A stretch of DNA of 46,787 bases from Longimicrobiales bacterium (lineage in GTDB: Bacteria; Gemmatimonadota; Gemmatimonadetes; Longimicrobiales; RSA9). This document shows positions 9,740 to 9,870 of the stretch, in pieces. Within the stretch, counting starts at the first letter, position 1; every line of letters starts with the position of its first letter. Position numbers and translations under genes: made by a program. The notes under the pieces are model-generated. The model did not search any database and was not told the DNA's origin. It worked only from the letters and a program-made list of their open reading frames with translations. The DNA is taken from NCBI GenBank assembly GCA_035461765.1, contig DATHUY010000091.1:1-46787 (forward strand). Reading direction: 5' to 3'.

Positions 9740-9870
9740 CGGACGCGGAACCCGTTCTGCAGAACGGCTCACTCGCACATTCGTCTGTCCGGCCGGTACG
9801 ACTCCACCATTCCGTGATGGGCCGCTCGCATGACCCGGTGTGCCGTTCTGCAGAACGGGTTCCGCGTCCG
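9740..9870. repeat. Foldback element: 29-nt perfect inverted repeat with nested 16-nt palindromes
   Basis: The arm at 9740-9768 is an exact reverse complement of the arm at 9842-9870 over 29 nt, separated by 73 nt. Each arm also contains the perfect 16-nt palindrome CCGTTCTGCAGAACGG (9752-9767 and 9843-9858). The right arm ends 8 nt before the cystathionine beta-synthase stop (9879), while the left arm lies 64 nt upstream of the ddl start (9675). No T-tract follows. It could be a miniature mobile or REP-like element, a large transcript hairpin, or a pair of operators. I see no other copy in the window. Confidence 0.9.

Follow-up and report, generated by a model that had tools for sequence, protein, structure and literature searches.

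A foldback element between cbs and ddl in a Longimicrobiales genome belongs to a dispersed repeat family probably linked to a RAYT transposase

The 131-nt foldback at positions 9740-9870 very probably belongs to a RAYT/TIRYT system, as a non-autonomous miniature element of REPIN-like form. The observations that bear on this reading are the copy number and architecture of the repeat family, its link to a RAYT gene, the co-occurrence of repeat and gene across genomes, the absence of target-site duplications, and the covariation between the two arms of the element. The window, the whole stretch of 46,787 nucleotides that was analysed, corresponds to contig C91 in a draft genome of 4.68 Mb (G000), and its relevant features are as follows.

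5297-5427, no strand: second family element, 131 nt, between convergent genes with 3' ends at 5282 and 5431
8629-9675, minus strand: ddl (D-alanine--D-alanine ligase), assigned by inspection
9740-9870, no strand: compact inverted-repeat element, 131 nt, short size class
9740-9768, plus strand: left arm, 29 nt, perfect partner of the right arm
9740-9753: conserved head CGGACGCGGAACCC of the left arm
9740-9791, plus strand: left conserved half-element, about 50 nt (model R1, 52.3 bits)
9752-9767, no strand: nested palindrome CCGTTCTGCAGAACGG, as a hairpin not conserved across the family
9769-9841, no strand: spacer, 73 nt, varying between copies
9819-9870, minus strand: right conserved half-element (model R1, 52.1 bits)
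9842-9870, minus strand: right arm, 29 nt, with its head at 9857-9870
9843-9858, no strand: second copy of the nested palindrome CCGTTCTGCAGAACGG
9879-11369, minus strand: cbs-like gene, predicted cystathionine beta-synthase fold with CBS domains, assigned by inspection

The foldback and its genomic family

Direct reading of the sequence confirmed the architecture given in the preliminary description: the arms are exact reverse complements at 29 of 29 positions, 73 nt lie between them, and each contains the 16-nt palindrome. The reported distances also held: the gap to the cbs stop codon is 8 nt, and the likely start codon of ddl, an ATG at 9675, is 64 nt away. Conservation extends beyond the perfect arm and covers about 50 nt in each half (9740-9791, and 9819-9870 reversed). 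When the 131 nt were folded as RNA, the two strands gave z-scores of -9.6 and -9.8, and 0 of 200 shuffles folded as well; together with the genome-wide recurrence of the motif, for which the reversed control gave zero matches, this bears out the earlier statement that the foldback is beyond chance. An Rfam search around the element returned no match.

The 16-mer CCGTTCTGCAGAACGG has six exact occurrences in the genome and 137 matches with up to three mismatches, against 11 for its reversed control. The arm head CGGACGCGGMACCC is matched exactly at 58 sites per strand (reversed control, 0), and nearly all of these 116 heads form inverted pairs. The search for further copies of the arm and the palindrome, which the preliminary description had proposed, thus returned many intergenic ones, and the fallback of a merely local hairpin is contradicted by the arm-head counts. 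We catalogued about 51 compact elements (48, then three more), which have conserved ends and a variable interior and fall into two size classes, most at 130-131 nt and the rest mainly at 185-190 nt (about 131 and 187). These counts are approximate, as loci L047 (contig C62) and L084 (contig C61) look like one locus on two contigs; the two carry different versions, which may be strain variation within the draft genome.

The elements are intergenic, with 20 between tandem, 15 between convergent and 8 between divergent genes among 43 confident calls, a context resembling that of published REPs (PMC3733652). A 3' gene end is found no more than about 20 nt away for 23 of 32 short-class and 5 of 19 long-class elements (Fisher p 0.003); both these counts and the orientations use codon-usage estimates of gene ends from our own scorer rather than a gene caller. 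The second element in the window, at 5297-5427, nearly fills the gap separating two convergent genes, and its interior contains a strong G+C-rich hairpin of 11 bp, flanked by short T-rich stretches. Short tandem repeats with units of 5-10 nt adjoin element ends at L032, L043, L052, L062, L080 and L090, and tandem arm heads stand beside the element at L084 423-632, L090 550-597 and L091 545-591 (units of about 40, 35 and 17 nt).

The RAYT transposase, element ends and mode of insertion

Two RAYT genes were found on another contig (C107), each within an arm pair.

C107:99580-100527: RAYT-type HUH/Y1 transposase gene, between half-elements at 99504 and 100585
C107:1806-2738: paralogous RAYT, enclosed by a different arm pair

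The arm pair around the first gene spans 1082 bp in G000 and 1081 bp in the congener G001, whose orthologue is 73% identical and has the same arrangement between arms. The encoded protein matches Pfam Y1_Tnp above the cut-off, REP_Tyr_transpos with E 5e-18 and 65 bits, below the curated cut-off of 80, and the solved TnpA_REP structure 4er8 with E 3e-5. The motifs HIH (HxH) at 58-60 and YVHLN (Y-xxx-N) at 117 are invariant in four homologues, and a C-terminal stretch gave a weak match to HTH_23 (E 0.0012, 19 bits against a cut-off of 24.6).

A protein search at E 1e-10 recovered this RAYT in 2 of 61 genomes, G000 and G001, and the half-element model found its family in the same two of 31 genomes searched, with 116 and 64 matches, besides one weak lone match in G025. 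A more distant scan based on the RAYT alignment, using two peptide patterns, returned nothing beyond the congener and a single weak homologue in Poribacteria. The suggestions of a miniature mobile element or a REP-like dispersed palindrome are therefore supported: the compact intergenic copies number about 51, a RAYT gene lies within one of the arm pairs, and RAYT and repeats occur together in the two congeners only.

The paralogous RAYT is enclosed by a second arm family, CCGGACCYGGCTTCACTTT, located at L076 739-765 and 1792-1818 on C107. The head of this arm occurs about 35 times in the genome, with compact pairs of 136-187 nt; copies include L153-L167, of which the longer ones carry two unlike arm types.

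Target duplications had been expected for a mobile family; none were seen above the level of shuffled flanks, since 6 of 48 elements had a flank match of at least 2 nt where about 4.5 are expected. This is what an HUH/Y1 route of mobilisation, and not a DDE route, would leave. The GTAG tag was absent from the element ends, where the conserved head is CGGACGCGG or CGGACCTGG, so the best-studied rule of RAYT recognition does not apply here. The base beside the head is species-specific on both sides of the element: in G001 it is G in 40 of 40 flanks, and in G000 88 of 96 flanks have T or C. It may belong to the element ends or reflect a target preference. Some element sites are unoccupied in G001, with junctions too diverged for clean empty sites, and insertion is accordingly read from the dispersed copies and from differences in occupancy.

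We infer mobilisation by the RAYT at C107:99580-100527 through a single-strand route. The unit consists of two inverted conserved half-elements of about 50 nt each, and where the DNA becomes single-stranded, as on the lagging-strand template, its arms would form a 29-bp stem. The HUH/tyrosine transposase would recognise the CGGAC-type head and cut, and copies would be inserted into intergenic DNA without target duplications. Transcripts running from cbs to ddl would carry the 29-bp stem, with a possible effect on cbs/ddl RNA stability or read-through. Occupation of the window site may be old, since it is occupied in both congeneric species.

Arm covariation and alternative explanations

In an alignment of 23 short elements, 97.5% of the cells in the inter-arm stem are paired. 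Seven pairs have changed on both sides, in 30 cells, and 0 of 500 shuffles reached this value; the shuffles leave relatedness in, and orthologous pairs therefore weigh more than this test. The intra-arm 16-nt palindromes are often broken across the family, and no double-sided, compensatory change was found within them. The emphasis that the preliminary description placed on the nested palindromes was thus misplaced, the inter-arm stem being the structure that covaries, and a nested palindrome conserved as a hairpin was rejected.

At the window site, the elements of G000 and G001 both have arms matching at 29 of 29 positions, with 6 positions differing per arm between the species. The same values were obtained for the element at C39:65801 (L037) and its counterpart L127 in the congener, where interior identity reaches 78%, the highest among 35 partners, making vertical descent credible for this pair. 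The window element and its congeneric counterpart were not accepted as proven orthologues: their interior identity of 0.60 equals background, so replacement by another element is possible there, and the argument from joint arm changes is carried by L037/L127. Within elements, the arms match on average at 27.2 of 29 positions (short class) and 26.9 (long class), against 24.4 and 23.6 between elements. Arms that enclose genes such as ylxP and copA, 0.5-2.8 kb apart, match at 19-25 of 29, which is the cross-element level.

Several other explanations were weighed against a RAYT-mobilised element. A paired operator specific to ddl, as had been suggested, would agree with an upstream location, 64 nt from where ddl probably starts, and with the palindrome in each arm, yet it is extremely improbable, because dozens of unrelated loci carry the same element, many copies have a broken palindrome, and the window copy lies nearer the cbs 3' end than ddl; neither restriction to the region upstream of ddl nor conservation there was found, as copies are spread through the genome and the palindrome has a different sequence at the same site of the congener. 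A classical MITE, mobilised by a DDE transposase acting on terminal inverted repeats, would likewise be short, non-coding and dispersed, with perfect terminal repeats and a variable interior. We consider it very unlikely, given that target-site duplications do not exceed the shuffled expectation and that the sole transposase found inside these ends is of the HUH/Y1 type, in a survey that included no systematic DDE search of the genome. The elements could instead be RNA structures that the host now maintains at gene 3' ends to stop transcription or protect mRNA 3' ends, their mobility being a thing of the past. The bias of the short class toward 3' gene ends, the covarying inter-arm stem and the terminator-like hairpins in some interiors, such as 5297-5427, speak for such a role. 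We nevertheless regard it as unlikely, though less so than the DDE route, because the arms of most copies have no following T-run, 8 of 43 copies lie between divergent genes, copy number tracks RAYT presence across genomes, and the gene ends behind the positional bias come from our own scorer. This role and a RAYT-mobilised element are not mutually exclusive.

A further possibility concerns what keeps the arms matched, namely template switching during replication (quasipalindrome correction) rather than selection on the hairpin. Stem repair by template switching is a known process (PMC8794818), and both the close matching of arms in compact elements, as opposed to those around genes, and the six joint changes per orthologous arm are in its favour. 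We regard this as a tentative alternative, the strongest of those considered, as selection for a transposable hairpin predicts the same pattern, gene-enclosing pairs may simply have lost mobility, and replacement is also possible at the window site. Both selection on the hairpin and template switching fit the arm data and are inseparable by distance dependence alone; orthologous pairs with jointly changed arms offer a direct way to ask which of them acts. The identification as a RAYT/TIRYT-type miniature element has points against it as well: no transposition was observed, sites in G001 that lack the element are not cleanly empty, the GTAG tag is missing, and the REP_Tyr_transpos score falls below its cut-off. 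In addition, such a compact family can be kept by vertical descent, without present activity.

Relation to known systems and gene-enclosing pairs

The best filing is as a non-autonomous element of the TIRYT/TIRtron type (REPIN-like), in which the family is new and the kind is known. As in the TIRYT/TIRtron systems of Di Nocera et al. (2013, PMC3733652), a RAYT-like HUH/Y1 gene is flanked by long TIRs unrelated to GTAG, the dispersed repeats are moderately abundant and often dimers (in some members), and more than one TIRYT with different repeats can be present per genome. Three features of TIRYTs were found here: a RAYT-like gene with the HUH motif and catalytic Tyr, flanking TIRs, and dispersed paired TIRs. 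In contrast, the common, although not universal, TIR motif GGGGWSAS (PMC3733652) is absent from the present arm consensus by inspection, and the two fixed size classes are a feature of the present family. Most TIRYTs fall in TnpAY1 subclass 2.1/RAYT group 1 (PMC6006769), to which our protein may belong, being a long RAYT with a putative C-terminal HTH-like stretch (the weak HTH_23 match below its cut-off). No REP-like sequences were found near subclass 2.1 genes in that study, whereas they are plain in this genome.

In Pseudomonas fluorescens, REPINs (Bertels and Rainey 2011, PMC3116915) are also intergenic inverted doublets with conserved ends, a variable spacer, a hairpin, compensatory changes and a RAYT association. 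The present family differs in having no GTAG-type REP, a conserved half of about 50 nt instead of a 16-nt core, and about 50 copies instead of hundreds. A filing as classical REPINs was rejected, the inverted hairpin pair being present and the GTAG tag absent. MITE-like derivatives of IS200/IS605 share the HUH/Y1 enzymology and the lack of target duplication, but have asymmetrical left and right ends, unlike the symmetrical inverted-repeat ends seen here.

A word search for Gemmatimonad- in the text of PMC3733652 found no mention, and the literature on TIRYT and on Gemmatimonadetes with such elements, which covered few subscription papers, contained no description of this family. Within the searchable literature, it is apparently an undescribed RAYT/repeat family in Gemmatimonadota, most of which is already explained by the known framework. 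The two paralogous RAYTs, each with its own arm family, form a compact natural test of RAYT-repeat specificity.

Half-elements also occur in pairs around resident genes, at four loci.

L069 1492-1967
L071 1796-4554
L078 889-3053
L077 1179-2641

The genes bracketed are ylxP, copA, an amidohydrolase gene, and a RidA-like gene with its neighbour (a two-gene unit), and ylxP is bracketed by half-elements in G001 too. The arms appear, from gene order, to have come in around a resident ylxP, because the infB-ylxP order is also present in relatives without the repeat family; the absence of the arm in these relatives is read mainly from a shorter contiguous match, the junction alignment being loose. 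It is conceivable, although rather improbable as a combined claim, that half-elements of the RAYT family bracket genes (ylxP in the infB operon of both congeners, copA, the amidohydrolase, the two-gene unit) as well as each other, with the compact arms evolving jointly by template switching. If so, short hairpins would be renewed while gene-spanning pairs drift, and a single end sequence would have two roles, in miniature elements and in units that bracket genes. The gene-enclosing half-elements are in inverted orientation in every case, as in the compact form.
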